From positions 7,501 to 71,500 of the forward strand of contig NZ_FUWR01000012.1 of NCBI RefSeq assembly GCF_900167465.1: a stretch of 64,000 nt of DNA, written 5' to 3'. Numbering within the stretch: position 1 is the first letter of the stretch; every line of letters begins with the position of its first letter. The position numbers and the translations under genes are program-made. Source of the stretch: Trichlorobacter thiogenes. GTDB taxonomy: Bacteria; Desulfobacterota; Desulfuromonadia; Geobacterales; Pseudopelobacteraceae. Shown here in pieces: positions 22,761 through 41,838 of this stretch. Below the pieces are notes generated by a model that searched no databases, was not told where the DNA came from, and saw nothing but the letters and a program-made list of their open reading frames with translations.

Positions 22761-22769
22761 GTTGTAAGC

Positions 22770-22862
22770 GCCACCAGAGTTGGCGGTCACGGCAGATAGT
22801 TGGCATAGCCACTTATCACAACATATTGGTATTACATTGATTACTTTTGGCGCACAATTTGT
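22770..22862 (+). promoter_or_regulatory. Sigma-54 promoter module 5
   Basis: Inverted repeat GCCACCAGAGTTGGC at 22770-22784, third half-site GTTGGC at 22799-22804, A/T-rich block from 22815, GG at 22849-22850 and GT at 22861-22862. Module and leader are near-duplicates of module 4. Confidence 0.82.
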
Positions 22863-22912
22863 AATAACTCCAGCAGAGGCGAACATCCGCTAAACACAGA
22901 AGGGAGATAACC

Positions 22913-23359: not shown

Positions 23360-23445
23360 CGACGCTTTCAGTATAACAAGGCAAACGTCCCCCATGACGG
23401 TGTGAACTTCCAAGCCACACAGTCCCGCTCAAAAGGAGAACCACC

Positions 23446-23718
23446 ATGAAAAAAATCAGCGTTGCTTGTACCCTGCTCTCATTACTGCTCGTTTCCGCAC
23501 CGGCTTTTGCGGCAAACAGCTGTTTCTGCGTTGGACAGAACCGTTCCGCAGGGACATGTGGAAATGGCGGCGTGTCGGGCAGTTTTATGGATGTACGTAA
23601 AAACCTTCCCGACAACCTGATGAGGTTCCTGCTGCTTACACAAACGCTGCGAGACACCCTGTCCACCACAGGGAAAGCCTATGATCCAACATCAGGCTGG
23701 TCCTGCTGGAAAGAGTAA
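23446..23718 (+). CDS. Small secreted CGNGGV protein, copy 1
   Basis: A 90-residue protein with a signal peptide ending at AFAANS. The mature part has CFCVG, CGNGGVSG and a C-terminal GWSCW. The same pattern is found in the protein at 25345, so the four cysteines are conserved as a family mark. The family is unknown to me. AAAGGAG precedes the ATG. Second gene after module 5. Confidence 0.75.
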   Translation: MKKISVACTLLSLLLVSAPAFAANSCFCVGQNRSAGTCGNGGVSGSFMDVRKNLPDNLMRFLLLTQTLRDTLSTTGKAYDPTSGWSCWKE

Positions 23719-23817
23719 CCACCGGCTGAAGACCACTCCGGGGGCAGCTTATAGCTATGCAAGCACAAGTAGGTAAGGCACCCTCGGAATAATACCCTGC
23801 TTATGGAAAGACCGACT

Positions 23818-25203
23818 ATGACACGGACACCGTTTACCTGTTCAATTGTTGCCGCAACCTTGCTGTTCATCACAGCCGGATGCGCACCACAGCACACTGC
23901 TGTCCTTGTGAAGCAGGGTACGACAGCAGCTTCAACAGATGACTTCAACCGTTCAAAACCAGAAGAGCTGCCAAGTGAGATTGAGGATATCCAAAAGATA
24001 CCGCAGAATCTGCGCAGGTTCACCGCCACACTACAACCACTACCAACCAGCGAAGAATCGGCCAACGCCCTGCGTCGGTTTCGCACACAACATTTCTCCC
24101 CCTGGACAGAGCCGCAGCCGACCCACAACCTCACACAGTCAATCCAGGGGATGAAGGATATCGCAAAAACAACCTGGTATGGAGAGAACCGTCTTAAAGT
24201 TAAGCCGGAGCGGATCAAAGTGATTCTTGGGCATGCCGACCTTGATCAACTGCCTTCCATGAACCAGCCGGGGATAGCCATAGCCCCCACCTTTATGCGG
24301 GGGCTGCCCAACCTGAAACCGCTGTATGAGACCTCTGATGACTTTCCCTTTGATCAGTTGCAATACAGCGAGGTAAAGCCCAACGAGCCGGTGCGTATCC
24401 TGCACCTGTCTGACACCGGGGCCTGGGCATTTGTCGAGACCGCCTATGGCCTTGGCTGGGTAAAGGCAGGCACGGTGCTACCGGTTGACAGATCAATGCA
24501 GCAACGGCTGACCAGCGCTGATCTCGTCGTCATTACCATGGATTTTGCAGTGATTCGGGATGACAAGGGGAAGGCGATGCCGCAACCCAGAATTGGTGCC
24601 TTGTATCCCCTTGTGCGCGAAGAGCCGGATTACTGGCTGGTTGAGCTGGCTGTCCCTGGAGAAGATGATTGGGCAACGCTTAAAACAGCACGGATCCTGA
24701 AAAAGGATGCCCAACGTTTCCCGCTGCCGTTTAACGCCGAAACCGTAACACATATCGGTAACGAGCTGCTCAAGACCCCCTACGGCTGGGGTGAGCTGTT
24801 CCGTGACCGTGACTGTTCCGCCACCACCAGAGATTTCTTCCTGCCGTTCGGCATCTGGCTGCCCCGTAATTCACGGGAACAGTTGCATTCCGGGCCTTTT
24901 GTCTCGCTGGCCAACCTCTCGAAACCGGACAAGGAAAAGCTGCTGATCCAGCAGGGGGTGCCGTTTCGTACCATTGTCCACCGCAAAGGGCATATCATGC
25001 TCTACGCAGGGCTTTTTGACGGCAGGCCGGTGGTGCTGCATACCACCTGGGCGATCCGCTTTAAAACCAAGAGCGGTCAGGAAGAAAAGTTCTACGTTGG
25101 CAGAACAGTGCTGACCACCCTGGAGGCTGGTTTTGAGCTACCCCTCTCCAGAGGAACCCTGCTTGACCATGTGGATGGTATACTGACGCTACCGGCCAAA
25201 TAG
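23818..25203 (+). CDS. NlpC/P60 murein endopeptidase lipoprotein with SH3-like domains
   Basis: A 461-residue lipoprotein (lipobox ITAGC, Cys22). The middle contains bacterial SH3-like segments (WAFVETAYGLGWV). The C-terminal NlpC/P60 domain shows TPYGWGELFRDRDCS with probable catalytic Cys333, KGHIMLYAG with His392, and His408 in HTTW. Such enzymes cleave the gamma-D-Glu to diamino-acid bond in stem peptides and yield L-Ala-D-Glu, the substrate type of the epimerase at 35221. ATG at 23818 is preferred to 23803 because GGAAAG precedes it. The stop is next to module 6. Confidence 0.87.
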   Translation: MTRTPFTCSIVAATLLFITAGCAPQHTAVLVKQGTTAASTDDFNRSKPEELPSEIEDIQKIPQNLRRFTATLQPLPTSEESANALRRFRTQHFSPWTEPQPTHNLTQSIQGMKDIAKTTWYGENRLKVKPERIKVILGHADLDQLPSMNQPGIAIAPTFMRGLPNLKPLYETSDDFPFDQLQYSEVKPNEPVRILHLSDTGAWAFVETAYGLGWVKAGTVLPVDRSMQQRLTSADLVVITMDFAVIRDDKGKAMPQPRIGALYPLVREEPDYWLVELAVPGEDDWATLKTARILKKDAQRFPLPFNAETVTHIGNELLKTPYGWGELFRDRDCSATTRDFFLPFGIWLPRNSREQLHSGPFVSLANLSKPDKEKLLIQQGVPFRTIVHRKGHIMLYAGLFDGRPVVLHTTWAIRFKTKSGQEEKFYVGRTVLTTLEAGFELPLSRGTLLDHVDGILTLPAK

Positions 25204-25206
25204 TCT

Positions 25207-25300
25207 GCAAACAAAGTTGGCAGCACAAGACATGCGTTGGCGGTTATTATTCACATAACATACTGATATAACAATCATTTATTGCTGGCACAAAATCTGC
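25207..25300 (+). promoter_or_regulatory. Sigma-54 promoter module 6
   Basis: Imperfect inverted repeat GCAAACAAAGTTGGC at 25207-25221, third half-site GTTGGC at 25236-25241, A/T-rich block from 25252, GG at 25287-25288 and GC at 25299-25300. It precedes the genes at 25345 and 25723. Confidence 0.83.
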
Positions 25301-25344
25301 TATGAGTTACATGTGGCTATCATGCAACTACCAAGGAGATCACC

Positions 25345-25623
25345 ATGAAAAAAACTATCATCGGAGTACTGCTTTTGGGCATTATGCTGTCCGGCGTACC
25401 TGCCGAAGCAACTACCACCTGTCTGTGCGTTGGAAGTGGAAATACCAAATTCTGCGGGAACGGCGGTGTAGGAAGCGATTTCCTGGGCGTCCATACCAGA
25501 ATATTAAGTCAGAATATTAAGTACTTCCTCCTGACATCGGCTTTGCAGGCGCAGTTGAGTGCCAGCGGCAAGGTGTACGATTCAAAGAGTGGCTGGTTTT
25601 GCTGGAACGGCACGTTGCAATAG
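25345..25623 (+). CDS. Small secreted CGNGGV protein, copy 2
   Basis: A 92-residue protein with a signal peptide ending near AEATTT. It has CLCVG, CGNGGVGSDF and GWFCW, as in the protein at 23446, with a helical-looking middle (YFLLTSALQAQLSASGKVYD). AAGGAG precedes the ATG. First gene after module 6. Family and role unknown. Confidence 0.75.
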   Translation: MKKTIIGVLLLGIMLSGVPAEATTTCLCVGSGNTKFCGNGGVGSDFLGVHTRILSQNIKYFLLTSALQAQLSASGKVYDSKSGWFCWNGTLQ

Positions 25624-25668
25624 CGGCAGATTGAAAACTGTATGGTTTTTGTTCTGACTAACGGAAAC

Positions 25669-25694
25669 AAAAAAGGGGCAGCCCCCACTTTTTT
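25669..25694 (+). terminator. Possible terminator or attenuator hairpin
   Basis: GGGG and CCCC (25675-25685) form a short G/C stem flanked by an A run and a T run (25689-25694). It lies between two genes that share module 6 and could reduce expression of the second. Confidence 0.45.
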
Positions 25695-25722
25695 CGGAAC
25701 TGGATTGGGAAAGGAGGACATC

Positions 25723-26157
25723 ATGTTCAGCAGGCGCAGGAGCATACGGTGGTCAGTAAATAGCAGCTCTCTATTTGCACTGGCAATTGCCGGTCTGGTA
25801 TCGGCCACCCCCGGCAGTGTGCTGGCCGGAAGTTGCATGGATGGTAAACTTTCCTGCTCGATCAACTACATCTACAATGACACCCAAATCAAGATCATCA
25901 AGAGTGTCAAAATCGACTACTCCGCGACCATATCGCCAAGTGTAAAGACACGGGTGGAATGCAGCCAAGTCGCGGACGGCACGACAGACCTTGATTGCAG
26001 ATCATGGACAACCTATGCCTATATTTACCAGATCAAGGTGGCCTATCCTGGCAGGATAAAAAATCCGGGCTATTCCGCCATCATCGGTGACACGTGTGAA
26101 AAGGTATGCAATGCGCTTGGTATTGGGGTGTACTACATGAACGGCAGACCGTTGTAA
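25723..26157 (+). CDS. Small secreted protein, unknown family
   Basis: A 144-residue protein with a long signal peptide ending near SVLAGS. The mature part begins SCMDGKLSCSINYIYND and has six cysteines in all, with a C-terminal CEKVCNALGIG. GGAGG precedes the ATG at 25723; an upstream in-frame start would include the hairpin. No family recognised. Confidence 0.7.
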   Translation: MFSRRRSIRWSVNSSSLFALAIAGLVSATPGSVLAGSCMDGKLSCSINYIYNDTQIKIIKSVKIDYSATISPSVKTRVECSQVADGTTDLDCRSWTTYAYIYQIKVAYPGRIKNPGYSAIIGDTCEKVCNALGIGVYYMNGRPL

Positions 26158-26159
26158 CC

Positions 26160-26260
26160 GTCTATTGTCACCCGATCGGCTTCTGTGATCCGGTCATTAA
26201 GGTGCTGAATGCCCTGCTAATGGCGGACGGGGACGACAGAGTAAACCGGGAGTGCCCTAG
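26160..26260 (+). pseudogene. Decayed 3' end of a small-lipoprotein gene
   Basis: One frame reads KVLNALLMAD, matching KVLNALLAAD near the C-terminus of the lipoprotein at 17116. As there, the fragment ends at a repeated sigma-54 module (module 7). It has no start and no signal peptide. Confidence 0.55.
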
Positions 26261-26270
26261 CGCGCTATAT

Positions 26271-26364
26271 GCCGACATTGTTGGCGTATCCGGACGAATG
26301 TTGGCGCACAGCAATGACATAATATACTGATATAACTACTTTCATCATTTGGCACGAACTCTGC
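26271..26364 (+). promoter_or_regulatory. Sigma-54 promoter module 7
   Basis: Inverted repeat GCCGACATTGTTGGC at 26271-26285, third half-site GTTGGC at 26300-26305, A/T-rich block from 26316, GG at 26351-26352 and GC at 26363-26364. It precedes a run of secreted-protein genes up to 29018. Confidence 0.83.
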
Positions 26365-26399
26365 GTTAGTAATTTTACCTTACAATACAGGAGATAGCC

Positions 26400-26843
26400 A
26401 TGAAATCAGCCAGTGTCATTACCCTGTTTTTCTGTTTCTTGTGCCTGACCATACTTGCGCCAAATCGGGCTCGGGCGTTTCAGCTCCAGCTTCCCAACAC
26501 CTATCAATGGAAGGTACAGTTGCCGAGTGACCTGCCGTTTGATCACTACACGATCACCATGCAGGCCGGCGGGACAACAAATACTGTGGTCCTGCAGCGG
26601 GGACAGATCTACACCTGGACAGCCCCCTATAACACGCCGCTCATGACAATCGAGGGGTGGAGGGTTGATAAATACAACAATAGGATCTATTTGGCAGGCC
26701 GCACCTGCGCCGGCACCGATTATGTACAAGGCCTTAATTTTGTCGAATGCAAATACAGTGTCAGTGTCAGGGTCTGCCCCAAACCGTCAATACCGCCTGA
26801 TCCTGTCTTGGAGAACGTCAAATACGGTTTCTGCCCTAATTAG
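26400..26843 (+). CDS. Small secreted protein, unknown family
   Basis: A 147-residue protein with a signal peptide ending near ARAFQL. The mature part is rich in Thr, Tyr and Val and looks all-beta (YTITMQAGGTTNTVVLQRGQ), with four cysteines in the C-terminal half (RTCAG, VECKY, RVCPK, GFCPN). A chaperone- or lectin-like sandwich is possible but not shown. GGAG precedes the ATG. First gene after module 7. Confidence 0.72.
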   Translation: MKSASVITLFFCFLCLTILAPNRARAFQLQLPNTYQWKVQLPSDLPFDHYTITMQAGGTTNTVVLQRGQIYTWTAPYNTPLMTIEGWRVDKYNNRIYLAGRTCAGTDYVQGLNFVECKYSVSVRVCPKPSIPPDPVLENVKYGFCPN

Positions 26844-26903
26844 CCGGAATAAGTTCAACGCTTAATTCAGCTTAACACCACAATTCCAGGGGGAAAGATC
26901 CTG

Positions 26904-27380
26904 ATGAAGACGCGGCAATACATTAGAAGTTTCCTTGTAGCAGCACTCCTCATGGCGACAATCACCGGTCAGTCAGAGGCAAAGGATTTCAGCGAAACCT
27001 GCAGAAACATATCACTACAAGGAAAGTACCTTAGCGCTGTGTGCATGACCTCAATGAAGTGTACCCCGGGCATAGAATCCCCCTGTATCTGTGACTTTCT
27101 CGGAATGAATTGCCGTATCGGACGGCCAACCGCAATCGATCTTAATCAGGGCATCTCAAATGTAGCGGGAGCGCTAAAATTTAAAGGGACAAATTTTAGT
27201 ACCACCTGCAGCAACCTCCATCTTGAGGTAAAACCAGGTTATGAGGTTGCGATGACTGGTAGCGTGACCTTACATGCAAAGTGTAAAACCTGGGGACCTC
27301 TGTCTCTGGACATTCCTGCAGCACTCGATCTAAATACCGGTATTAGCAACAATAAGGGAGTGCTGCTGTTTGACCAGTAG
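26904..27380 (+). CDS. Secreted cyanovirin-N (CVNH) lectin
   Basis: A 158-residue protein with a signal peptide ending near SEAKDF. Two tandem CVNH halves are visible. Half 1 (about 28-95) has FSETCRNISLQG, YLSAVC, IDLNQGISNVAGALKF; half 2 (about 98-158) has FSTTCSNLHLE, LHAKCKT, LDLNTGISNNKGVLLF. C33-C47 and C102-C127 correspond to the two disulfides of cyanovirin-N. A Cys-rich insertion with four extra cysteines (53, 61, 63, 70) lengthens half 1. CVNH domains bind mannose-rich glycans; secretion suggests binding of foreign or own surface sugars. Confidence 0.85.
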   Translation: MKTRQYIRSFLVAALLMATITGQSEAKDFSETCRNISLQGKYLSAVCMTSMKCTPGIESPCICDFLGMNCRIGRPTAIDLNQGISNVAGALKFKGTNFSTTCSNLHLEVKPGYEVAMTGSVTLHAKCKTWGPLSLDIPAALDLNTGISNNKGVLLFDQ

Positions 27381-27426
27381 GGATAACTGGTGAGGGAGTA
27401 TAAATAAACCTGATAAGGAAAAGTAA

Positions 27427-27712
27427 ATGAAGAAAAAAACACAGTGGTAATCGGGATGGTGGTCTATTTCATGATGATGGCGACTGTGGCCTGGGCTCTA
27501 GCGTCAGCATGGCTTCCGCTGATTCACTGACGGTAGTGCTGGCAAACAGGCTTCCAGGCAGCGTTCAGGTGGTAGCTAAAGTAGGCGGGTGGAGCATGTA
27601 TTAAATTGCAGTACGATCCGGTTTAACCGCAGGCGTAGCAGGATGTAGCCACTGGTTTACCATGTCTTGCACTACCGCTAATAGCTGCTATTCTCTCATT
27701 TATGTCAAATAG
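27427..27712 (+). pseudogene. Frameshifted secreted-protein pseudogene
   Basis: AAGGAAA precedes an ATG at 27427, but the frame stops after seven codons in an A-rich run. Shifting frame restores a typical signal peptide core (VVIGMVVYFMMMATVAWALA). A second shift then gives SADSLTVVLANRLPG, one in-frame TAA, and a further tail with three cysteines to the stop at 27710. At least two frameshifts and one nonsense codon show decay of a small secreted-protein gene. This fills most of the 27381-27822 gap. Confidence 0.65.
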
Positions 27713-27822
27713 ATCGACAGCGGAAAACAGAGCTGGACTTTCCAGCAGCAGAGACAACGGATAGCGGCACAGGACAATGAAAACGGAAGCTCAGACAGTA
27801 GTTTATACAAAAGGAGGGTATC

Positions 27823-28236
27823 ATGAGACTGGCAACGATCATCAGTATCCTGGTTATTTTGGCTTCTTCGGCCTCAGCTCACGCCAATGGCTGTCATTTT
27901 CTGGATCTGTATGCGTTTATAAAAGACTACCGGATCGGTGATGTGTACTGTTCAAAAGGCAAACTGATGGGCAAGGCCACCAACGACCTTTATGTTCAGC
28001 AAATCGGCGGGGAGGGACCAAGTTGCGATGTGACGTTCATCCAAAACAGTGCAGCGCCATTTGGTAACAACTGGGTAGAAGTTTCCAAGATACATATCCA
28101 GCAAAACCTGTGTGCCTTGAAGGCAGGTAACATCCATGTCAGCCACCTGAGCGGCAAGGTTCCCACCTACACGACAAAGGAAGGGAGTTTCTCACACAGC
28201 CGAAGCGGAAACATAACCATTACCGGCTTCAAGTAG
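27823..28236 (+). CDS. Small secreted protein, unknown family
   Basis: A 137-residue protein with a signal peptide ending at SAHANG. The mature part has four cysteines (GCHFL, VYCSK, SCDVT, NLCAL) and a beta-like Ser/Thr C-terminus (SHSRSGNITITGF). AAAGGAGG precedes the ATG. It is in the module 7 gene run, after the pseudogene. No family recognised. Confidence 0.72.
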   Translation: MRLATIISILVILASSASAHANGCHFLDLYAFIKDYRIGDVYCSKGKLMGKATNDLYVQQIGGEGPSCDVTFIQNSAAPFGNNWVEVSKIHIQQNLCALKAGNIHVSHLSGKVPTYTTKEGSFSHSRSGNITITGFK

Positions 28237-28284
28237 CTATCGATACAGAAGGAGTCCGTTCCCTTCGGCAGACAAGAGAGCATC

Positions 28285-28608
28285 ATGCAAGCAGCGTGCA
28301 AATCGTTTCATCGACCCCCAATAGCAATCCTACTCCAGCAGATCGGATCTGCGGCGCTGATCGTCTTTTTCATGTCGGCAATCAGCGCTGCAGCTGCCCC
28401 GACCCCCAAATATGCCCCCAAAACCGTGCCATTATCCCGCGACCACGTCTATTTCCAGAATCCTGCCCATCCGGCTCCCGACTACTGGGCCTTATCCGGC
28501 AAGCCGGTGGCGGATTCCCGTCGCTGTAACAGCTCAAGCTGGACAGAAAACCGCTTAAACACAAAGGGGAGGACAAAATGCATCGCTACTTCTTTAAAGG
28601 TTTCATGA
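28285..28608 (+). CDS. Small secreted protein, possibly truncated
   Basis: A 107-residue frame with an N-terminal hydrophobic export signal ending near SAAAAP. The segment VPLSRDHVYF...PAPDYWALSGK looks like the start of a larger conserved protein, and the tail from about residue 80 runs into the leader and first codons of the next gene (30-base overlap), which is unlike its neighbours. A frameshift or deletion that removed the rest is likely. Function not assigned. Confidence 0.5.
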   Translation: MQAACKSFHRPPIAILLQQIGSAALIVFFMSAISAAAAPTPKYAPKTVPLSRDHVYFQNPAHPAPDYWALSGKPVADSRRCNSSSWTENRLNTKGRTKCIATSLKVS

Positions 28609-29018
28609 TACTCGCAGCGGCAATTCTTGCGCTGACAGCCTCGGTGCCTTCGAGCTGGTCAGGTACTTACATTGAAGAAGAGTATAAAAAAGTGGAAGCC
28701 TTCACAGTTGCAAGCCCATGGAAATGTACTTTTTCAAAGCTGCTGTTCTCTTCTGTCATCGAGTTCTGGCGCTGGGGCACATGGGAATCTTTCGAGCTGA
28801 TGTATCAGGATACGTCAAGGCGGGGTTATAATCACCATTACAGATCCATATGCTACGCTTGCTATCATACAAGCGGCAATAGTTATGAGTGTTACATGGG
28901 CTCTTGTTTGGAAGGGAGTGCTGCAAGCGGCGACAGGACCGGACAGGTAGCACTGGACCCTGGTGTAACCAAGGAACAGGCCTGCAAGATTGTTTTCGAA
29001 AAGCTTCATGTGAAGTGA
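28578..29018 (+). CDS. Small secreted cysteine-rich protein, unknown family
   Basis: A 146-residue protein with a signal peptide ending near SSWSGT. The mature part has six cysteines (WKCTF, SICYACYH, YECYMG, SCLEG, QACKI counted by motif) and several aromatic residues. GGGGAGG precedes the ATG. It is the last gene before module 8. No family recognised. Confidence 0.7.
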   Translation: MHRYFFKGFMILAAAILALTASVPSSWSGTYIEEEYKKVEAFTVASPWKCTFSKLLFSSVIEFWRWGTWESFELMYQDTSRRGYNHHYRSICYACYHTSGNSYECYMGSCLEGSAASGDRTGQVALDPGVTKEQACKIVFEKLHVK

Positions 29019-29109
29019 CAACAAAAACCGTATTCAAGGGACGCCGGGTGACAAAAAAATGAAGCGGAGTTCCGCCTGTTTCCGTATCACAATGCAGAGC
29101 CGTTAAACC

Positions 29110-29204
29110 GCCAACAATGTTGGCAGAACCAGGCGTAAGTTGGCAGCTGCCGCAGAGATACAAGGTCATTAATTCAGCATGTTAGCCATTGGCACATCTA
29201 TTGC
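29110..29204 (+). promoter_or_regulatory. Sigma-54 promoter module 8
   Basis: Inverted repeat GCCAACAATGTTGGC at 29110-29124, third half-site GTTGGC at 29139-29144, GG at 29191-29192 and GC at 29203-29204. The middle A/T block is weaker than in other copies. A leader of nearly 200 bases (29205-29399) without a clear gene follows before the ATG at 29400. Confidence 0.82.
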
Positions 29205-29399
29205 TGAACAAGGTAACAACGGCAGAATGAAGGGAAACTGCCACTTCGTTACAAGTAACAGGTATAGCCAGGATACAGGCCTGCGAGGCCGTATTCAGGG
29301 AAACCAGATAATGTCAGAATAGCAACCGAACGACCGCTATTAGCATTCTATTGTCCCCATTCATTTGGGAACGTCCCTACGTAAACCAAGGAGATCGCC

Positions 29400-29780
29400 A
29401 TGAAAAAGACAACCCTCATCACCGCATTCGCCACCCTGCTGACAACCGTACTGTGCAGTCTGGGCAGCGCCGAAGCCGGTATGGTCAAGGTCATCAACAA
29501 CTCAAATTTCGTACTCGGCGTCGGCGTCAAATTCAGCGACGGCAGTAAAAGCAGCCCCGAGATCATCAACCCCAACAGCTCCAAGCCGGGGCTGGGATCA
29601 CCGGTAAAAGCGGTCAGCCAGATCAAGGTGGTCAACACCACCGACGGTACCGATCCCAGCAAGGCAGTATTGAAGGAGTATCAGGAGCCAGCTCCCAAGC
29701 TGCTAAAAGACTACGTTGTTACCGTGGACAAACAGGGCGGTGTTATCGTTACCTCAAGTACCCCGGCGGGTTTCTTTTAA
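29400..29780 (+). CDS. Small secreted protein, distant relative of the VTIINKT group
   Basis: A 126-residue protein with a signal peptide ending at AEAGMV. The mature start AGMVKVINNSNF parallels AGQVTIINKTQDW of the proteins at 19656 and 22913, and the end has DYVVTVDKQGGVIVT. It has no cysteines in the mature part, unlike the others. AAGGAG precedes the ATG. It is the first gene after module 8 and leads the NagZ/transport run. Confidence 0.72.
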   Translation: MKKTTLITAFATLLTTVLCSLGSAEAGMVKVINNSNFVLGVGVKFSDGSKSSPEIINPNSSKPGLGSPVKAVSQIKVVNTTDGTDPSKAVLKEYQEPAPKLLKDYVVTVDKQGGVIVTSSTPAGFF

Positions 29781-29910: not shown

Positions 29911-31098
29911 ATGCAGACCTGCACCCGCCGTACCTTTCTCAAAAACAGCGCCCTGACCGGTGCATCCCTGTTGCTGCCCGGCCTGCTGCTGGGCGGCTGC
30001 GCCGCCACCCGTCCGGCAATCCGGCAGAGCTTTCCCGACCTGCAGTCATGGCCGCTGGAGCGTAAGATCGCCCAGATGCTGCTGTTGGGGTTTCCCGGCG
30101 AGACCCTGGAACCGGGCAGCCCGATTGATCAGGCCATCCGGCGCTACGGTGCAGGCGGGGTGGTGCTGTTTGACAACAACATTGATCTGGGGGAGACCGG
30201 TCGCAACATCACATCCCCGGCCCAGTTAAAGCAATTGACCAGTGTCCTGCAACAGGCAGCAGAAGTGCCTCTTCTGATTGCGGTTGATCAGGAAGGGGGC
30301 GTGGTTGCCCGGCTGAAGGATCGCTATGGCTTTCCGGCAACGGTATCAGCCAAGCATCTGGGGCAGCAGAACCGACTGGAGCTGACCCGCGCATCCAGCG
30401 ACAGCCTTGCAGCAACGCTGGAGGAATACGGCTTCAACCTGAACCTGGCGCCGGTGGTTGACCTGGCAACAAACCCGGACAATCCGGTAATCGCCTTCAA
30501 AGAGCGCAGTTTTTCTGCCGACCCTGCCCTGGTAACGGCCCATGCTGCCGAGTTCATCAAGGGCCACCACCGTCACCAGATCCTGACCTGCCTGAAGCAC
30601 TTCCCCGGCCACGGCAGCTCTCGGGATGATTCCCACCTGGGCCTGGTGGATGTGACCCGTTACTGGCATGAAAACGAACTGCAGCCCTACCGTGACCTGA
30701 TCAGCCAGGGGCTGTGCGATATGGTGATGACCGCCCACACCTTTAATACCGCCATAGATCCCCTGTACCCTGCCACCCTTTCAAAAGCCACCATTGATGG
30801 TATACTTCGCAAACAGTTGGGCTTTAACGGCGTGGTGGTCAGCGACGACCTGTACATGGGGGCGATTATCCAACATTACAGCTATGAGACCGCGGTGGAA
30901 AAGGCGATTAATGCCGGGGTTGATCTGCTGGTGGTGGCCAATGACAAGCTCTACAGCCCCGACATCATGCCCCGCACCATTGAGCTGCTGTTAACGATGG
31001 TGGAGCAAGGCAGGATTTCACGGGAACGGATCGATCAGGCCTGCAACCGGATTATAGCGATGAAGAAGCGCACATTGAAACATGGGGATGCTGCATGA
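29911..31098 (+). CDS. Exported NagZ-like beta-N-acetylhexosaminidase (GH3)
   Basis: A 395-residue glycoside hydrolase family 3 protein. The N-terminus carries a twin-arginine motif (RRTFLK) and a lipobox (LLGGC), so it is a periplasmic lipoprotein, whereas E. coli NagZ is cytoplasmic. The NagZ hallmark KHFPGHGSSRDDSH is complete and the nucleophile lies in VVSDDLYMG (Asp near 312). It removes terminal GlcNAc from muropeptides. The stop overlaps the receptor/permease start by four bases, which points to co-expression with uptake of the products. Confidence 0.9.
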   Translation: MQTCTRRTFLKNSALTGASLLLPGLLLGGCAATRPAIRQSFPDLQSWPLERKIAQMLLLGFPGETLEPGSPIDQAIRRYGAGGVVLFDNNIDLGETGRNITSPAQLKQLTSVLQQAAEVPLLIAVDQEGGVVARLKDRYGFPATVSAKHLGQQNRLELTRASSDSLAATLEEYGFNLNLAPVVDLATNPDNPVIAFKERSFSADPALVTAHAAEFIKGHHRHQILTCLKHFPGHGSSRDDSHLGLVDVTRYWHENELQPYRDLISQGLCDMVMTAHTFNTAIDPLYPATLSKATIDGILRKQLGFNGVVVSDDLYMGAIIQHYSYETAVEKAINAGVDLLVVANDKLYSPDIMPRTIELLLTMVEQGRISRERIDQACNRIIAMKKRTLKHGDAA

Positions 31099-34097
31099 AG
31101 AAGATTCTGCTGACGACCGTCAGCCTGCTACTGTTGATACTCTGCGCAGCAGGCTGTAGCAAGACAGAAAAGACAATCACCCGTCTTGATGATGCCAAGA
31201 CAGCAAAGATCGGCGTCATGACCGGCACCACCGGCGAAGAGATTACCAAAGCGCGCTTTCCCAATGCCCAGGTAAAAAGCTTTGATGATGTGATGGATGC
31301 GGTTGCCGCCCTGAAGTCGGGGCAGCTTGAGGCGATCGTCACCGCCCTGCCCACCGCTGTTCAGGTCTCAAAGGTAAACAAAGAATTCACCACCCTGCCG
31401 GAACCGCTGGATAATGAAGACACCGCCATCGCCCTGAGAAAAGCAGACAGCCAGCTTTTGGCTGATCTGAACCGGATTATTAGCGATCTGCAGGCAGACG
31501 GCACCCTGGCCTCCATGCGGAAGCGTTGGTTAAAGGCAGATACCGGACCCTATGAAGAGCTGAAGCTTACGCCACCCACATCAGGAAAGCTGCTTAAGAT
31601 CGGGGTATCTGCCACCCGCGAACCGCTCAGTTTTGTGGATAAGGATGGTCGGGTCACCGGCCATGACGGCGAACTGGCCCGTCTGATCAGCATCAAGCTT
31701 AACCGCCCGATTGAGTTTTCAAACATGAAGTTCATGGCGCTGATACCTGCCCTGCAGTCAGGCAAGGTAGATATGATCCTGAGCGGCATGACCGCCACGG
31801 ATGAGCGCAAAAAAGCGGTCAACTTCACCCGCCCCTACTTTGCCAATGCCCAGGTGATGCTGGTAAAAAATGCGGTAAAAACTGCTGCTGCGTCAGACGA
31901 CTCACTGGCAGGGCTGGGCAACAAGCGGATCTGCGTACTGAACGGCTCAGCCGGTGATCTGGCTGCCCGCAAAAACTTTCCCGGCGCACAGTTCCAGACC
32001 TTTACTGCCGCAGCTGATGCGGCCCTGGCGATCAAGGCCAACAAGGCCGATGCCTTTATCTATGACAAAAGCGTACTGCTGAACCTGGTTGTAAAGAACC
32101 CTGAACTGGTGATTCTTGACAAGCCGGTGGCCAAGCTGGAGGTGGCTGCAGCAATTAAAAAAGAGAACAGCCAACTGCTTGCAGAAATAAACAGGGCACT
32201 CCAAAACCTGAAAACAGAAGGCGACCTGCAACGACTCAGGCAAAAGTGGGTTGACGCAAAGTACAGCGCAACGCCAACGCTGTCGGCCACCGACACCACC
32301 GCCGCTAATGGTGTGCTGAAGATGGGTACCTGTGCCAATCTTGAACCGTTTTCTTTCCAGTCCAACGGCAAACTGACCGGCCTGGATATTGAACTGAGCC
32401 AGCTGATCGGCAAACAGCTTGGCAAAAAAGTTCAGATTGTTGATATGAATTTTGAGGCCCTGATTCCTGCCTTGCAATCAGGCAAAATCGACTTTGCCCT
32501 CTCCAATTTCAATGTAACTGACGAGCGCAAGAAACTGATCAACTTTTCCGCGCCGTACATCACTAACGACATCGGTGCGTTGGTCAGACGGAGCGACCTT
32601 CCGTCCAGTTCCGGCACCACCGGCGCCAAACCGGAAAAAGCAGGGGGTCTGCTACGCACTGCCGACGATCTGAAGGATAAACGGATCGGCGTTCTGCTGG
32701 GTTCGGTCCATGACACCTACGCCACCAAACAGTATCCCCAGGCCACCATCCTGCAGTACAAAAGCCCTCCTGATCTGATACTGGCGGTCAAATCCGGCAA
32801 GGTTGATGCTGCCTTTTATACCCACGAAACCCTGCTGGAGGTTCTGCGACAAGACAAAGAGTTGGCACTGCTGGGAAAACCGCTCTTTTCCGTTCCAATC
32901 GCAGTCGGCTTTAACAAGGGTAATGACGCACTGAAAGACCAGTTCAACACCTTCCTGCGTCAGATCAAATCAAACGGCCAGTTTAATGACATGGTCACCC
33001 GCTGGATCCTGCAGGGCAGCACCCAGATGCCAAACATTGACAATACAAAGAACAATGGCCGACTGGTGATCGGCATTGTCAGCGACAAGGGGATGCCGTT
33101 CACCATCATTAAAGACAATAAAATGATCGGCTTTGATGTTGAATTGGCTGAACGGTTTGCCGCCTACCTGGGCAAGGAACCGGTCTTTGCCGACATGGAG
33201 TTTGGCAGCCTGATTGCCGCCGCCTCAACCAACAAGATCGACGCTATCTTCAGTACCCTGATGATTACCGACGAGCGGAAGAAGCAGGTCGCTTTTTCAG
33301 AGCCGTACTATGAACTGGGGGCCAGTGTCTTTGCGCTGAAGAAGAATACTGCTGATGCTGACACAACAAGTCATGGCCCCAAGCTGGCTGCCCCTTCCTT
33401 CATCACCAACCTCGTTGCCAGCTTTCAGAGCAACATCATCCATGAAAAGCGTTATCTGCTGATCCTAGACGGCCTTAAAACCACCGTGATCATCTCCATC
33501 TTTGCCACCATCTTCGGCACCCTGCTGGGTGCCTTGGTCTGCTTCATGCGGATGGCACAATCAAACCTGCTGAATCTGCCTGCCAAGCTCTACATCGCCA
33601 TCCTGCGGGGCACACCGGTACTGGTGCTGTTGATGCTGATCTTCTATGTGGTCTTTGCCTCAGTCAATATCAACCCGGTGATTGTGGCAATCATCGCCTT
33701 TGGGATGAACTTTGCCGCCTACACCGCAGAGATCTTCAGGACCGGCATTGAAGGGGTGGAAAAGGGACAGACTGAGGCCGGTATTTCTCTGGGCTTCACC
33801 AAGACCAGCACCTTCTTCCATATTGTGCTGCCCCAGATGGTGCGGCGGATCCTGCCGGTCTACAAAGGAGAGTTTATCTCGCTGGTCAAGATGACCTCCA
33901 TTGTGGGCTACATCGCAGTGCAGGACCTGACCAAGGCCAGTGACATCATCCGCAGCCGCACCTTTGATGCCTTCTTCCCGCTGGTGATGGTGGCCATACT
34001 CTACTTCCTGATCTCATGGTTCCTGATGCAGTCCCTGGAGTACCTGGAACGGGTCACAGATCCAAAATTCAAAAAGAAAAAGGTGGCCAACCAATGA
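31095..34097 (+). CDS. Giant amino-acid receptor/permease fusion with three permuted receptor units
   Basis: A 1000-residue lipoprotein-like fusion (lipobox CAAGC near residue 20). Six half-domains alternate in the order lobe II (about 35-150), I (165-255), II (270-390), I (405-495), II (515-645), I (655-745), then a GlnP/HisM-type permease (about 765-985) with [19 protein letters not shown]. Lobe I halves show the pattern TxEPxSFxD, ALQSGKxD, TDERKKxxxF; lobe II halves end in GxxxxMxxRW. SBP_bac_3 proteins normally start with lobe I, so these units are permuted. The receptor is tethered to its own permease; the ATPase is encoded next, with a four-base overlap. Confidence 0.9.
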
Positions 34098-35185
34098 TCA
34101 AGGTACACCATCTCTCCAAGACCTACGGTGACCTCACCGTACTGAAGGATATCTCCCTTACCGTTACCAAGGGTGAAGTCATCTCCATTATCGGACCATC
34201 GGGCACCGGCAAATCCACCTTCCTGCGCTGCCTCAACCTACTGGAGCAGCCCAGTGGCGGCTCCAGTACGGTGGACGGGATTGACCTGCTGGATAAAAAG
34301 AGCGATGTCCCTAAAATCCGGCAGCGGATGAACATGGTCTTTCAATCCTTCAACCTGTTTTCCCATCTGACGGTGCTGGAAAACCTGACCATCGGACCGA
34401 TCAAGCTGCTGGGGATGCAGCGGGGTGAGGCAGAACAAAAATCCCTGGAGATCCTTAAACTGGTGGGGCTGGCTGAAAAGGCCGACAGCTTTCCCGATGA
34501 ACTTTCCGGTGGACAGAAACAACGGGTGGCCATTGCCCGCTGTCTGGCCATGAACCCGGAGATCATCCTGTTTGATGAACCGACCTCAGCCCTTGACCCC
34601 ACCATGGTCAGCGAGGTACTGGCCGTTATCCGGCGGCTGGCCAAAGACGGTATGACCATGCTGATTGTGACCCATGAGATGGCCTTTGCCCGCGATGTCT
34701 CCAATCGGGTGCTGTACATGGATGAAGGCCTGATCTATGAAGAAGGGACACCGCAGCAGATCTTTGAACAGCCACAAAAGGAAAAGACCAGGGCCTTTAT
34801 CAACCGGATCCGCAGCTTCAACTATCGGATCAGCTCACCTGACTATGACCTGTATGCCATGAACGCAGAGATTGAACAGTTCTGCGAACGTCAGATCCTG
34901 CCCAGAAAGACCCGGCACAATCTGCTACTGCTGGTGGAAGAGCTACTGCAGATCCATAACCCGCTGCTGGCCACAACGACCCTTGACCTGACCATCGCCT
35001 ACTCTGAGAAGAAGGAAACCATTGAGATCATTCTGGAACATCAGGGAGAGACAGGTAACCTGTTAGACAAGAAGCGCCTGCCCGATGAGCTGGGGCTGAA
35101 CATCATCACTCACCTGGCTCAGGAGATTGATTATCAACGGGTTGATGCAACAAACCGGGTGACGGTGCTTTTGAAAAAGGATTGA
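34094..35185 (+). CDS. Polar amino-acid ABC ATPase fused to an RsbW-like domain
   Basis: A 363-residue protein. Residues 1-250 form a GlnQ-type ATPase: Walker [10 protein letters not shown], signature [16 protein letters not shown], Walker [13 protein letters not shown]. About 110 further residues follow, which ordinary GlnQ lacks. They match the layout of the RsbW-like protein at 4501: an N-box-like [14 protein letters not shown], then a strand pair and [18 protein letters not shown]. Key GHKL residues look partly degenerate, so it may bind a partner rather than ATP. ATG at 34094 overlaps the permease stop. Confidence 0.85.
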
Positions 35186-35220: not shown

Positions 35221-36324
35221 ATGGATACCATACGCATCAAACAGGCCTGCGCCGCTATTGTTACAGCGCCGTTGAACACCCCCTTCAGAATCGCCACCGG
35301 CCAGCACGACCAGTTGCAAAATGTCTTTCTGCAGCTTGAAACCGACAACGGCATCTGCGGCTATGGTGAGGCTGCAGTTGCCACCCATATCACCGGCGAA
35401 ACCGTGGAGCAGACCCTGGCCAATCTGCAACAGGTAGCAGAACAGCTGGTCGGACGCAGCATTGTTGATTACACAGCCCTGATCAACGGGTTCCGTCCCT
35501 GTTTTGATGCCAACCATGCCGGCCTGGCAGCCTTTGAGATGGCACTGCTGGATCTGGTCAGCCGTAGTCGGGACATGCCGTTTGGCAGCCTGTTCAGCCC
35601 TGCCCCCGGCTGCAGCCCCAGGCCCTGCTTTACCAGCGACATCACCATCGTAATCGGCAGCCTGGAAGAGGCCGAGAGCGCAACACGCCACTATGCGGGA
35701 CAGGGGTTTAACGCCTTTAAGATCAAGATCGGCAAAGCCCCTGATCTGGACCTGCAACGGGTCTTGGCGGTCAAGCGGATTGCACCTGACAGCAGCCTGA
35801 TTCTGGATGCCAACATGGGCTTTGATGCTGCAGGCATGCTGAAGTTTCTGAAACAGCTTGAAGGGTACGGCATCCGCCCGATGCTGCTGGAACAACCGGT
35901 TCCCAAGGGGGATTGGGATGGCCTGGCCGCCATCACCCGCGCACTGGAGGGTAGCGGCATGCTGGTCTGTGCTGACGAGAGTGTCGGTTCACTGGCAGCA
36001 GCTAAACAGGCCATCAAGCTGCAGGCGGTCAATTCCATCAACATCAAGTTCATGAAGAGCGGCATTCTAGAATCAGTACAGATTGCCGAACTGGCCTGTC
36101 GCAACAACATCAGGCTGATGCTGGGGGCGATGATGGAAAGCAGTCTGGCCATTACCGCTGCAGCACACTTTGCCGCAGCCCTGGGCTGCTTTGAGGTGAT
36201 TGATCTGGACACCACCTTCTTTATCAACGGCCCCCTGTCCCGCAGCCCCTATCTGGATCAGAGCGGCAGGTTTGACCTGAGCAACCCGACACCCGGCATC
36301 GGAGTGGAACTACAGTTGCCATGA
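35221..36324 (+). CDS. Dipeptide epimerase (L-Ala-D/L-Glu type, enolase superfamily)
   Basis: A 367-residue MLE-subgroup enzyme. The capping domain has TAPLNTPFRI and GYGEAAV. The barrel shows the KxK motif FKIKIG (K167, K169), metal ligands in LDANMG, LLEQPV and CADES, and the opposing lysine in NIKFMKSG. Such enzymes convert L-Ala-D-Glu from murein to L-Ala-L-Glu for catabolism. It fits with the NagZ-like and NlpC/P60 proteins. Two broken copies of its 5' end occur at 19266 and 21943. The stop overlaps the DUF819 gene. Confidence 0.9.
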   Translation: MDTIRIKQACAAIVTAPLNTPFRIATGQHDQLQNVFLQLETDNGICGYGEAAVATHITGETVEQTLANLQQVAEQLVGRSIVDYTALINGFRPCFDANHAGLAAFEMALLDLVSRSRDMPFGSLFSPAPGCSPRPCFTSDITIVIGSLEEAESATRHYAGQGFNAFKIKIGKAPDLDLQRVLAVKRIAPDSSLILDANMGFDAAGMLKFLKQLEGYGIRPMLLEQPVPKGDWDGLAAITRALEGSGMLVCADESVGSLAAAKQAIKLQAVNSINIKFMKSGILESVQIAELACRNNIRLMLGAMMESSLAITAAAHFAAALGCFEVIDLDTTFFINGPLSRSPYLDQSGRFDLSNPTPGIGVELQLP

Positions 36325-37556: not shown

Positions 37557-39707
37557 ATGACCAATCGCAGACGATTACGCCCCAAAAATATCCGAACCCG
37601 TATCCTGTATGCACTGTTGGGTACGGCACTGCTGTCACTGGTCTGCTTTGGCCTGGTTTCATTCTGGAGCATGAACAACCTGGGACAGACCTCGCTGAAG
37701 GGGACCGTTGGCCTCAGTCAGGAACTGCTCAAGATCAGCAAAGGTTCCCTTGAAACCCTGACCCAGGAGGGGCTGCTAAAGTCTACGGTAGATCAGGCCG
37801 CACTGATCGACGCCCAGTTCCGCGATGTGGAAAACGACCTGAAGGTACTGGTGGACAGTGCAGAACGGATCTGGAAGACCCCCGGCCTCTACCCCCACAA
37901 GCGGTCCTATTCCATTGCAGATCAGCCTTCTGACCCGAAAGCCGCCTCAGTCTGGCAAATTCCCCAGGGGGTGCCTACCTCTGCTGTTGCAACAGAACTG
38001 CAGACGTCATCCGCCATGGACGACTTTATGATATCGGTTTTAAAGAGTAACCCGATCATCAACGACTGCAACCTGGCCACCCCCCAGGGACTGTTCCGGC
38101 GTTTTCCCTGGTCAGCCAATATTGACAAAAACTATGATGTCAGAAAACGTGACTGGTTCACCAGAGCACTTACCTCTGGCAGTCTGGGCTGGAGTGAGCC
38201 CTATGTGGGGGTCATCGCCCGCAACCTGCGAGTCAACTGTTCTGCCCCGGTTAAAAAGAACAATAAAATTGTTGCTGTGATCGGCCTGAATGTCCCGCTG
38301 ACCACCATTCAGGAGCGGATCATCAAGATGCGGATCAACAACCAGGGTAGGGCCTATCTGATCTCCAAAGACCGGCGGATCCTGGCCCGCGAAGGTCTGG
38401 ATACCAGCAGTAATGACTGGGGCGAGAAGCAAAAGGGGGAGTTTTTCTCCTTTGATGACCAGAAGGCGATGCCGCTGTTGGACAAGAACCTTGCCTCAGG
38501 CACCCCTGGCATCATGCGCGGCATGCTGGGGAAACAGGACAGTTTTGTGGCCTATGCCCCCTCCAGCACCACCGGCTGGTCAGTACTGTTTGCCCTGCCG
38601 GTTGAGGCGGTCTATGCCCCGATCCGGCCGACGGAACAGGCAATTGTAGCCCAGACCAAGGCTGCCAGCAGCCTTGTCTATCAGCAGATCGGCATTACCA
38701 TGGCTATTCTGGCGGGTGTGTTTTTGCTGGTATTGGGCGGCGTCACCGTGGTTTCCCGCCGTGTTGCAGAAAAAATTACTGCGCCGATCCTTGAACTGGA
38801 GAGCGGTGCGGAGATCATCGGTAACGGTAACCTGGAACATCGCCTGCAGCTGCAAAGCGGCGACGAGATCCAGCAACTGGCAGAGACCTTTAACCGGATG
38901 GCTGCGGACCTGTCCCGCTACATCCATGATTTGACCGTGACCACCGCAGCCAAAGAACGGATCCAGAGTGAACTGAAACTGGCCACCGATATTCAGGCCT
39001 CACTGCTGCCCCGCATCTTTCCGCCCTTTCCTGATCGCAAAGAATTTGCCCTGTTTGCCCTGATGGAACCGGCCAAGGAAGTGGGCGGTGATTTCTATGA
39101 TTTCTTCTTCCTTGATGATCGCAGAATTTGCCTGGTGATTGGCGATGTGTCTGACAAAGGGGTACCGGCCGCCCTCTACATGATGGTGGCCAAAACCCTG
39201 CTGAAGAGTGAGGCGCTACGGGATGCAAATCCGGCCCAGATCCTGGAGCGCACCAACTCCATCCTGGCACTGGATAACGAGACATCCATGTTTGTGACCG
39301 TTTTCTGCGCCATTCTGGATACCGATACCGGCCAGCTTGACTGCGCCAATGCCGGGCACCTGCCGCCGCTGATCCAGAAGGCTGATGGCTGCACCACCTA
39401 CCGCAGTTTCTCCCCCGGCTTTGTGCTGGGCCCGATGCCGGACATCAGCTACCGGACTGAACAGATCATGCTGCAGCCGGGCGAACTGTTCCTGCTGTAC
39501 ACCGATGGGGTCAATGAAGCGGTTAATCCAGCCCTTGAAGAGTACGGAGACAAACGTCTGCTGGATTGTGTGACCGCACACCCTGCGGCAACGCCAGAGC
39601 AGATCATCCATGCTATCCGGGCAGAGGTGCTGGGTTTTGCCAATGGCGCACCACAGTCGGATGATATCACCATGCTGGCCATACGCTATCTGGGAAAGCA
39701 GGCGTGA
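37557..39707 (+). CDS. Cache-HAMP-SpoIIE (PP2C) phosphatase sensor
   Basis: A 716-residue membrane sensor. Helices near residues 18-40 and 378-400 flank a periplasmic double-Cache domain with RKRDWFTRAL and GWSEPYVGV. A HAMP domain follows (to about 455), then a SpoIIE-type PP2C domain with EVGGDFYDFF, GDVSDKGVPAALYM, NAGHLPPLI and TDGVNEAVN. Such phosphatases reactivate STAS antagonists, so the STAS/RsbW pair at 4160-4926 or the RsbW-like tail at 34094 are possible targets. Cache domains often bind amino acids or carboxylates, which fits the neighbouring transporters. Confidence 0.92.
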   Translation: MTNRRRLRPKNIRTRILYALLGTALLSLVCFGLVSFWSMNNLGQTSLKGTVGLSQELLKISKGSLETLTQEGLLKSTVDQAALIDAQFRDVENDLKVLVDSAERIWKTPGLYPHKRSYSIADQPSDPKAASVWQIPQGVPTSAVATELQTSSAMDDFMISVLKSNPIINDCNLATPQGLFRRFPWSANIDKNYDVRKRDWFTRALTSGSLGWSEPYVGVIARNLRVNCSAPVKKNNKIVAVIGLNVPLTTIQERIIKMRINNQGRAYLISKDRRILAREGLDTSSNDWGEKQKGEFFSFDDQKAMPLLDKNLASGTPGIMRGMLGKQDSFVAYAPSSTTGWSVLFALPVEAVYAPIRPTEQAIVAQTKAASSLVYQQIGITMAILAGVFLLVLGGVTVVSRRVAEKITAPILELESGAEIIGNGNLEHRLQLQSGDEIQQLAETFNRMAADLSRYIHDLTVTTAAKERIQSELKLATDIQASLLPRIFPPFPDRKEFALFALMEPAKEVGGDFYDFFFLDDRRICLVIGDVSDKGVPAALYMMVAKTLLKSEALRDANPAQILERTNSILALDNETSMFVTVFCAILDTDTGQLDCANAGHLPPLIQKADGCTTYRSFSPGFVLGPMPDISYRTEQIMLQPGELFLLYTDGVNEAVNPALEEYGDKRLLDCVTAHPAATPEQIIHAIRAEVLGFANGAPQSDDITMLAIRYLGKQA

Positions 39708-40822
39708 TGATCACAGAAAAAACAATCTCTCACGCGGAGCCGCGAAGCTCGCGGAGCAGACCAACCAGCTGCCGCCTGATATTGATTCCCTGGCACCGTA
39801 TCATCACCTCTGTTTTCAGGTGTCTCTTTAGCACTCTCCGCATCTCCGCGTCTCCGCGTGCAATAGCCTTTTGCCGGTTCATCGGTCTGCTGCTCTGCAT
39901 AACAGCCATCCTGTCAACCTTTTTTGACACGGCCCAAGCCAAAGAACGGGTTGAGATCGCCATGGTACTCTGGCGGGGCGAGACTGAAGCAGAAAAAGGC
40001 TTTCGTGAAAAACTGGCAACATCGCCTGACTATGAGGTGGTGATTACCGCCTTTGATGCAGGTCAGAACAAAGAAAAACTGGACAAGATCCTGGCCGGGC
40101 TGGACCACAAACGCTTCCGACTGGCCTACACCTTTGGCACCATGGTGACCCAGGCAGCCCTGCAGCAGACTCGTGATATCCCGATCATCTTCAACATTGT
40201 ACAGCGTCCGGTTGAGGGCAAAGTGGCTGCCAGCATGGAACATCCCGGCGGCAGGGCCACCGGTGCCTCCAACCTGGTGCCGATGGACAGCGCCTTCCGC
40301 ACCCTTGGCACCCTGATGAACATCCGCAAGCTGGGCTTTGTCTACTCAAGCCACGACCCGGCCCCCCGCTACCAGTTGGCAGAGATCAGGAAGCAGCAGA
40401 AGCGGTTCGGCTTCAAGACCCTGGAGTTCCCGATTAACGGCAAAGAGGGTATTGCCAGCACCATGAAGCAGGTGATTGATGCACGGGTTGATGCCGTGAT
40501 CTTCCCGTCTGACTCCTTTGTCAAGGCCAATGCCAGCCGTATTATCGGCATCCTCAACAAGCACCGGATTCCCAGCGTGGTGGTCATACCGGAGATGGTC
40601 AGCGAAAACGGGGCGCTGATCTCACTGGGGCCGGATTACCGCACCCTGGGTCAACTGGCGGCAGACAATGCCCTGCTGGTCCTGAAAGGGCGCAAACCAG
40701 GAGATCTTCCGGTTCGTGTCGTGCCCCAGCTTGCCATTACCATCAATCTTGCCACTGCCGACCGGCTGGGCATCCATATTCCGCTGCAGCTGCTGTCGGT
40801 TGCCACGGTGGTAAAGCGATGA
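39707..40822 (+). CDS. ABC-type periplasmic binding protein (PF04392-like) with repeat-derived N-terminus
   Basis: About 371 residues. From near residue 60 the protein has a signal-peptide core (FIGLLLCITAILSTFF, ending near AQA) and then a type I binding fold of the ABC_sub_bind class (EIAMVLWRGETEAEKGF, IFNIVQRPVEG, IFPSDSFVKAN). The preceding 50 or so residues are encoded by a MITE-like element (39731-39860) read in frame, and I see no usable start after it. ATG at 39707 overlaps the phosphatase stop; a GTG at 39704 is an alternative. Export with so long an N-terminus may be impaired. Confidence 0.75.
   Translation: MITEKTISHAEPRSSRSRPTSCRLILIPWHRIITSVFRCLFSTLRISASPRAIAFCRFIGLLLCITAILSTFFDTAQAKERVEIAMVLWRGETEAEKGFREKLATSPDYEVVITAFDAGQNKEKLDKILAGLDHKRFRLAYTFGTMVTQAALQQTRDIPIIFNIVQRPVEGKVAASMEHPGGRATGASNLVPMDSAFRTLGTLMNIRKLGFVYSSHDPAPRYQLAEIRKQQKRFGFKTLEFPINGKEGIASTMKQVIDARVDAVIFPSDSFVKANASRIIGILNKHRIPSVVVIPEMVSENGALISLGPDYRTLGQLAADNALLVLKGRKPGDLPVRVVPQLAITINLATADRLGIHIPLQLLSVATVVKR
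39731..39860. mobile_element. MITE-like element with terminal inverted repeats, copy 2
   Basis: The left end (39731-39756) and the reverse complement of the right end (39836-39860) share CACGCGGAG, CGCG and GCGGAG. The element is 130 bp, GC-rich at the ends, has no gene, and lies between the start codon and the signal peptide of a binding-protein gene. Its left end resembles that of copy 1 at 16916. Confidence 0.65.
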
Positions 40823-41826: not shown

Positions 41827-41838
41827 AACGGAACCACC

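Follow-up and report, generated by a model that had tools for sequence, protein, structure and literature searches.

The gene at 31095-34097 on the forward strand of a 64,000-nucleotide stretch of the Trichlorobacter thiogenes genome (contig NZ_FUWR01000012.1, positions 7,501 to 71,500; hereafter the window) is predicted to encode the receptor-plus-permease subunit of a polar-amino-acid-type (PAAT, type I) ATP-binding cassette (ABC) importer. Ahead of the permease lie three units, each consisting of half-domain II followed by half-domain I. These II-I units are very probably complete, circularly permuted SBP_bac_3 receptors carried on the importer subunit, because the order of the halves in 54 of 54 open reading frames (ORFs) of the family, the joint lengths, the within-unit correlation of the halves and the AlphaFold models all agree. 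The original prediction, made from the letters of the DNA alone, offered two readings; the first, a permuted receptor in every II-I unit, is supported by relatives with a single unit, lone II-I genes, joints, correlations and models. The importer protein is laid out as follows; E values refer to half-domain hidden Markov models (HMMs).

31095-34097, forward strand: importer subunit with a lipoprotein-type signal, three II-I units and a permease; 1000 amino acids (aa), ATG start
31095-31157, forward strand: signal peptide with a lipobox ending at Cys21 (LCAAG-C), read from the sequence
31185-31532, forward strand: half-domain II of unit 1, residues 31-146, E 2e-45
31587-31871, forward strand: half-domain I of unit 1, residues 165-259, E 4e-42
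31914-32252, forward strand: half-domain II of unit 2, residues 274-386, E 5e-41
32307-32591, forward strand: half-domain I of unit 2, residues 405-499, E 2e-38
32664-33008, forward strand: half-domain II of unit 3, residues 524-638, E 6e-51
33054-33344, forward strand: half-domain I of unit 3, membrane-proximal, residues 654-750, E 1e-41
33414-34085, forward strand: permease domain of the BPD_transp_1 / polar amino acid type, membrane part at residues 774-997; nearest solved chain 4yms_D

The three HMMs (half I, half II, membrane part) were made from the importer protein and rebuilt once from its relatives. Each half is matched at E 2e-38 or better, thus the order II-I-II-I-II-I-permease is not a product of chance, and the half order and coordinates first proposed for the gene are borne out. 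The LCAAGC signal was assigned as lipoprotein-type by the lipobox rule. SBP_bac_3 (PF00497) scored 347.7 bits over the importer, above its curated cut-off of 26.4, in four stretches with a whole-protein E of 3.1e-105. BPD_transp_1 (PF00528) at residues 810-986 scored 60.7 bits against a cut-off of 26.4, and the HEQRo family TIGR01726 gave the permease 70.8 bits against a cut-off of 42.2. The importer thus has the composition of a PAAT type I system, that is, a BPD_transp_1 / HEQRo permease with a GlnQ-like ATPase in the operon, and it departs from the I-II lobe order of SBP_bac_3 in that the ORFs of the family have the permuted order (II-I)n. DNA-level repeats inside the ORF are short and scattered, 21 nucleotides (nt) at most, so the units are old and are not the outcome of a recent tandem duplication. 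A promoter and terminator scan remained at chance level (3 against 3.9 expected and 9 against 7.4 expected).

The importer's nearest relative in the genome is a split pair of genes in the same window, in which the gene break falls at a I/II boundary and not at a II/I boundary:

13242-14027, forward strand: free-standing II-I paralog with a lipoprotein-type signal, 261 aa, delimited by the HMMs; its II-I part was modelled
14109-15656, forward strand: paralog with signal, II-I unit and permease, 515 aa, 66% identical to importer residues 516-991

Further relatives were taken from a scan of genome contigs (23 loci), from genome-search loci and from one fetched region. A hand-set list skipped 15 loci as repeats or near-copies of places already included, L001-L003, which duplicate the window, were not read as loci, and L049, with 125 matched aa only, was not typed. 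ORFs with identical last 150 residues were merged, and those cut at the end of a locus or with any half covered by less than 70% were left out of the typing. According to record titles, mostly of metagenome assemblies, the relatives from the contig scan belong to Geobacter, Trichlorobacter, Geobacteraceae, Desulfobacteraceae, Methylococcaceae, Nitrotoga, Methylophilales, Methylophilaceae, other Gammaproteobacteria, Pelodictyon, Melioribacteraceae, Verrucomicrobia, Pelotomaculum, Sporomusaceae, another member of Bacillota and Hyphomicrobium. Among 395 genomes of the phylum, 4 contain the importer, a count that takes in the genome of the window. In the taxonomic order of the Pelodictyon record (L030) it was found in 21 of 61 genomes, that of L030 among them.

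All 54 complete, fully covered receptor-bearing ORFs of the family follow (II-I)n. Each begins with II, and the last half before the permease or the stop is I. They comprise 21 free-standing II-I proteins (~260 aa), 10 II-I-permease, 14 (II-I)2-permease and 7 (II-I)3-permease chains, one (II-I)4-permease chain (L086, 1253 aa) and one (II-I)2 chain that ends without a permease (L048, with a frame change between I and permease). Among the 32 complete fused ORFs n is 2 to 4 in 22 and 1 in 10; the survey of repeat number suggested with the original prediction thus yields one to four II-I units, or free-standing units, among relatives. The same HMMs return the order I-II in ordinary receptors from other systems (12 complete and 18 more). 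Ten further family rows, besides L035, L057 and L065 discussed below, were incomplete; one belongs to the neighbour of L057 and the other nine or so are (II-I)n. Within the order of L030, 13 loci have a separate II-I gene beside a permease-only gene and the tailed ATPase, and no other I/II-type receptor was found beside the unfused permease among the ORFs of the fetched stretch in these loci. Scraps of half II, recognized by eye, are kept in the permeases of L058 and L065, so the unfused state there may be secondary.

The lengths of the joints separate two kinds of link. The II-to-I joint measures 15-18 aa in all 59 joints between well-covered halves (the first such joint of L048, at -12 with a short half I, was excluded), the I-to-II joint 10-28 aa (mean 17.0, standard deviation 5.8, n = 26) and the I-to-permease joint 13-25 aa (n = 26). 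The I-to-II hinge of ordinary receptors is 5-7 aa in 13 and 4-9 aa in 18 more. A near-constant II-to-I link combined with a long and variable I-to-II link is as a permuted unit predicts. The sequence distances of the two halves are also correlated within units, with Pearson 0.91 and Spearman 0.69 for all 96 units and 0.92 and 0.73 for the 58 units of multi-unit proteins. Across units, I(k) and II(k+1) of the same proteins give 0.25 and 0.28 over 34 pairs, though these halves are chain neighbours as well, and the same sets of halves give 0.93 and 0.95 when compared within units. In 24 proteins the first II correlates with the last I at 0.55 (Spearman 0.50) and with the first I at 0.95 (0.91). 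Since distances correlate within and not across units, II-I is a module that duplicates and moves; taken together with the models, the correlation suggests that it is a folding unit as well.

These data bear on the second reading of the original prediction, in which adjacent halves would pair across units and the first II with the last I. Spelled out, I1 would pair with II2 and I2 with II3, giving two ordinary receptors nested within a third. In linear sequence I1-II2 does align end to end with ordinary receptors (E 1.6e-37, AncQR), and the best Pfam and NCBIfam stretches straddle units, e.g. 167-387 and 396-638. However, the joint inside such a receptor would be the longer, variable one of 10-28 aa versus 4-9 aa in 31 ordinary receptors, the correlation across units is the weak one, and free-standing II-I proteins and chains with n = 1 have no other half to serve as a partner. 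In addition, I(k) and II(k+1) do not form a single receptor in the full-length model described below. Joints, ORF typing, correlations and the full-length model thus disfavour cross-unit and first-II/last-I pairing in four ways, and we consider this arrangement very improbable.

The AlphaFold model of a lone II-I unit, the free-standing paralog with 47 aligned units, has a predicted local distance difference test (pLDDT) value of 95.7 and a predicted TM-score (pTM) of 0.89. It was compared by VIA-align with Foldseek's 1000 best chains. The longest good match is OpuAC, with a Z score of 12.1, a root-mean-square deviation (rmsd) of 4.0 and 10% identity over 201 aligned residues. Lobe I superposes on domain 1 of TmArgBP with a Z score of 11.2 and an rmsd of 2.4 over 94 aligned residues (41-42% identity), which VIA-align's rule treats as tied in Z with OpuAC, and many amino-acid receptors align over ~165 residues with Z scores near 10. 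The best Foldseek rows reach TM-scores of about 0.5, with a phosphate receptor and HisG enzymes first; such values are expected when a permuted order is put through a sequential search.

The full-length AlphaFold model (mean pLDDT 78, pTM 0.34, 20 aligned rows) is fair to good locally: within the units, pLDDT is 77-94 for most 10-residue blocks, and it is low at the I-to-II joints. Matches to it are described by their first and last aligned residues only. Unit 2 (272-503) aligns with OpuAC with a Z score of 13.8 and an rmsd of 4.3 over 208 residues, and ranges that cross units (e.g. 165-348 and 402-600) fit ordinary receptors with rmsd values of 14.2-17.4. Alignment with both GlnPQ domains together gives an rmsd of 25.0. 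As unit 2 fits in the order II-I and the unit-crossing ranges fit poorly, the model pairs the halves within units. Foldseek rows of receptors for the full-length model (rmsd 14-31) lack query ranges and were not counted as a test of pairing. The permease part aligns with 4yms_D with a Z score of 17.9, an rmsd of 3.6 and 31% identity over 206 residues. Structure prediction, one of the checks suggested at the outset, thus gives pairing within units and a poor fit of unit-crossing stretches, and standard I-II receptors behind a non-receptor N-terminal segment, the outcome named beforehand as incompatible with permuted receptors, do not appear in the models.

A different kind of exchange, in which half II of one chain joins half I of the other chain of an importer dimer, would be compatible with the sequence. 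One permease gene per system suggests, from gene order, that two identical chains are present. However, the free-standing II-I protein is predicted with high confidence as a single chain, and the near-fixed length of the II-to-I joint is expected of an intrachain link. Such swapping between chains is accordingly given hardly any weight.

Aligning the units to solved receptors located the pocket columns. Their roles are those of HisJ/LAO-type receptors, where an Arg column presumably binds the α-carboxylate and an Asp column the α-amine of the ligand. The carboxylate-site Arg of lobe I is present in 96 of 96 units. The amine-site Asp of lobe II is present in 45 of the 96, namely in 3/24 first, 9/10 middle, 12/25 last, 20/22 free-standing and 1/15 single units; in the window's importer it is found in unit 2 and is missing from units 1 and 3. 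Because pocket chemistry differs among units, they probably bind different ligands, and the simplest reading of the Asp pattern is different ligands for the units. With the Asp mostly missing from first and single units, some of these may bind ligands other than amino acids, or none.

A tree of the 96 units, set in I-II order, and 31 ordinary receptors places all permuted units on one side of a branch with support of 98 in the Shimodaira-Hasegawa-like approximate likelihood ratio test (SH-aLRT). It was made by a quick method, contains long branches and has an outgroup limited to the fetched receptors; a single permutation event at the origin of the family is its plain reading. Within the permuted side the units sort by position. 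One set of 26 (support 99) holds 20 of the 24 first units, five single units and one free-standing unit, and a set of 37 (support 99) holds 24 of the 25 last units with ten single, two middle and one first. A third set, of 21 (support 99), consists of 20 of the 22 free-standing units and one first unit, and a set of 9 (support 93) includes 7 of the 10 middle units.

It is conceivable, although unlikely, that just one or two of the units work as receptors and that the remainder have lost binding and act as spacers or docking modules, an arrangement compatible with the permuted fold. The missing Asp in most first and single units fits this possibility, as do receptor remnants in L057 and L065. 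On the other side, the Arg column is intact in every unit, and the positional types are old and conserved, with 20/24 first and 24/25 last units in sets supported at 99.

Several observations weigh against the interpretation of the units as complete permuted receptors. Three ORFs depart from (II-I)n-permease: the open frame of L035 holds only the tail of a half I and then II-I-permease, L057 (1498-3237) reads II-I-II fragment-permease, and L065 (1342-2208) reads II fragment-permease. L057 and L065 both belong to the order of L030, and their fragments before the permease look like decayed receptor units. Most first and single units have no amine-site Asp. The lobe pairing in the full-length model is a prediction from just 20 aligned rows, and its pTM of 0.34 leaves the relative placement of the units undefined. 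The distance correlation reflects the movement of II-I as a genetic module and not just physical pairing, and its rank form is lower over all 96 units (0.69). To these is added the exchange of partners between chains of a dimer, which we regard as highly improbable.

If the units are permuted receptors, each would be a type II binding protein whose original C- and N-termini are connected through the link of 15-18 residues, with new chain ends at the I-to-II hinge. A putative lipid anchor at the start of the chain, together with membrane embedding at its end, would hold three Venus-flytrap receptors in a row above the permease. Several predicted binding sites per channel follow from this anatomy. 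The single permease gene suggests a permease homodimer, which would bring the number of sites to six per channel, with the ATPase at 34094-35185 as the partner of that channel. The units would probably differ in the ligands that they hand to the common channel. These would be amino acids or small peptides bearing a carboxylate, perhaps freed from peptidoglycan by a neighbouring NagZ-like enzyme; both the ligand classes and delivery by every unit are putative. The adjoining features are:

29911-31098, forward strand: glycoside hydrolase family 3 (GH3) protein, NagZ-like, with a lipoprotein-type signal; 190.5 bits versus the 207-bit NCBIfam cut-off; 4-nt overlap with the importer start
34094-35185, forward strand: partner ABC ATPase, GlnQ-like, with a HATPase_c_2-like C-terminal tail; 4-nt overlap with the permease stop
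34841-35182, forward strand: HATPase_c_2-like tail on the ATPase, kept together with the importer system
35221-36324, forward strand: member of the enolase superfamily, closest to L-Ala-D/L-Glu epimerases but scoring under the curated cut-off

NagZ-like genes adjoin the importer in the window and in three loci (L031, L032, L034), and a further one may lie at the edge of L045, where the match is weak (E 9e-20); epimerase-like and DUF819 genes lie downstream in the window and in L031. These neighbours make uptake of peptidoglycan-derived amino acids or peptides plausible in the Geobacter group, though not in general; their presence in few relatives counts against the murein link.

The ATPase start at 34094 is an ATG chosen by us inside the listed ORF 34016-35185. 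Its best match, GlnQ, scores 301.9 bits, below the equivalog cut-off of 379. The tail in the window scores 21.4 bits for HATPase_c_2 (PF13581), under the curated cut-off of 27.4, and each of the 16 aligned tails, among them that of the window, reaches an E of 0.1 or lower, 1.3e-6 in the best case. Compared by eye, the Asn and Asp of the N and G1 nucleotide-binding motifs do not look conserved. In a single comparison the tail shares 19% identity (E 0.001) with an RsbW-like protein at 4501-4926, named by eye. Of 38 related genomes, the 9 with the importer all have the tail and the other 29 lack it; a genome was taken to have the importer at a best E of 1e-200 or lower, and those 29 are at 1e-34 or weaker. 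The window's genome has one such tailed ATPase only, versus two importer loci, so this ATPase probably works with the split paralog too. The tail is possibly a regulatory domain.

Other genes around the importer loci were noted. A dCache-HAMP-SpoIIE phosphatase (37557-39707) is the fourth gene downstream of the importer. SpoIIE-like genes adjoin the importer system in L027, L028, L030, L032, L071, L073 and L076, from several phyla, and one follows the DUF819 gene in L031; the match in L043 is weaker (E 1e-17). The L030 phosphatase is likewise of the dCache-HAMP-SpoIIE type, and a gene for an NMT1-like binding protein lies upstream of the SpoIIE-type gene in L027, L028 and L030. In L048 the gene directly downstream of the tailed ATPase (4574-7795) encodes a hybrid histidine kinase whose sensor domain is of the SBP_bac_3 family. 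Elsewhere in the window, a STAS protein and, after it, the RsbW-like HATPase protein named by eye (together 4160-4926) form a possible partner-switch pair. Proteins of HD-domain type (3237-4163) and sigma54-activator type (15619-16899), both named by eye, share the N-terminal motif IFELTK.G.YPP....AESFGM. The two importer loci are separated by a run of small ORFs at about 19656-29780; two similar small secreted-looking proteins are encoded within it at 19656-20102 and 22913-23359. Two neighbouring similar membrane proteins (mutual E about 3e-32) are encoded at 40819-42819.

Linear annotation tools call I-II receptors that straddle two real ones in this family, which calls for caution in annotation. 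Natural permutation of binding proteins seems to be rarely described. Permuted SBP_bac_3 arrays were not found among the literature matches listed, a search in which subscription journals were mostly outside the scope, and TpMglB-2 is the sole natural circular permutation of a binding protein among those matches. In an ordinary receptor both chain ends lie in lobe I. The permuted chain begins in lobe II and ends in lobe I, and anchor and permease would therefore hold different lobes; the family offers a series, from free-standing units to arrays of one to four, for asking whether permutation serves tethering. TpMglB-2 is presumably a separate lipoprotein outside any receptor-permease fusion. 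Both it and the importer show natural circular permutation, but TpMglB-2 has a type I glucose-binding fold and another permutation point. The protein (Tp0684 of Treponema pallidum) was proposed as 'Type Ic / Cluster Bc', and permutation is suggested there as a possible adaptation to anchoring (PMC4990184).

GlnPQ of Lactococcus lactis carries the tandem domains SBD1-SBD2 fused to its permease (PMC8025302). As in GlnPQ, more than one SBP_bac_3-type receptor precedes the permease in the importer chain, giving several predicted sites per channel. The GlnPQ receptors are ordinary I-II domains, two per chain (6h30), whereas the units of the importer family are II-I and number one to four or are free-standing. 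OpuA is described with its receptor fused to the permease in L. lactis and lipid-tethered in B. subtilis (PMC2861598). OpuAC thus resembles the importer in being fused or tethered, but it belongs to a betaine receptor family and occurs once per chain. TmArgBP and LAO-type amino-acid receptors have the same Arg and Asp columns as the importer units in the alignments, but they are free-standing and ordered I-II. The matched chain of 4yms shares the fold and family of the importer's permease and is a permease alone, of 215 residues. A broader proposal can be offered tentatively, and on balance we doubt it: that these systems form a separate cross-phylum class of ABC importers, in which arrays of one to four permuted receptors, each for a different ligand, are combined with an ATPase whose degenerate anti-sigma-kinase-like tail reads the ligand load or gates the pump, possibly with the adjoining sensor PP2C phosphatases. 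The importer family itself is a permuted SBP_bac_3 branch on a PAAT-type importer, and is neither of the GlnPQ kind nor of the TpMglB-2 kind.

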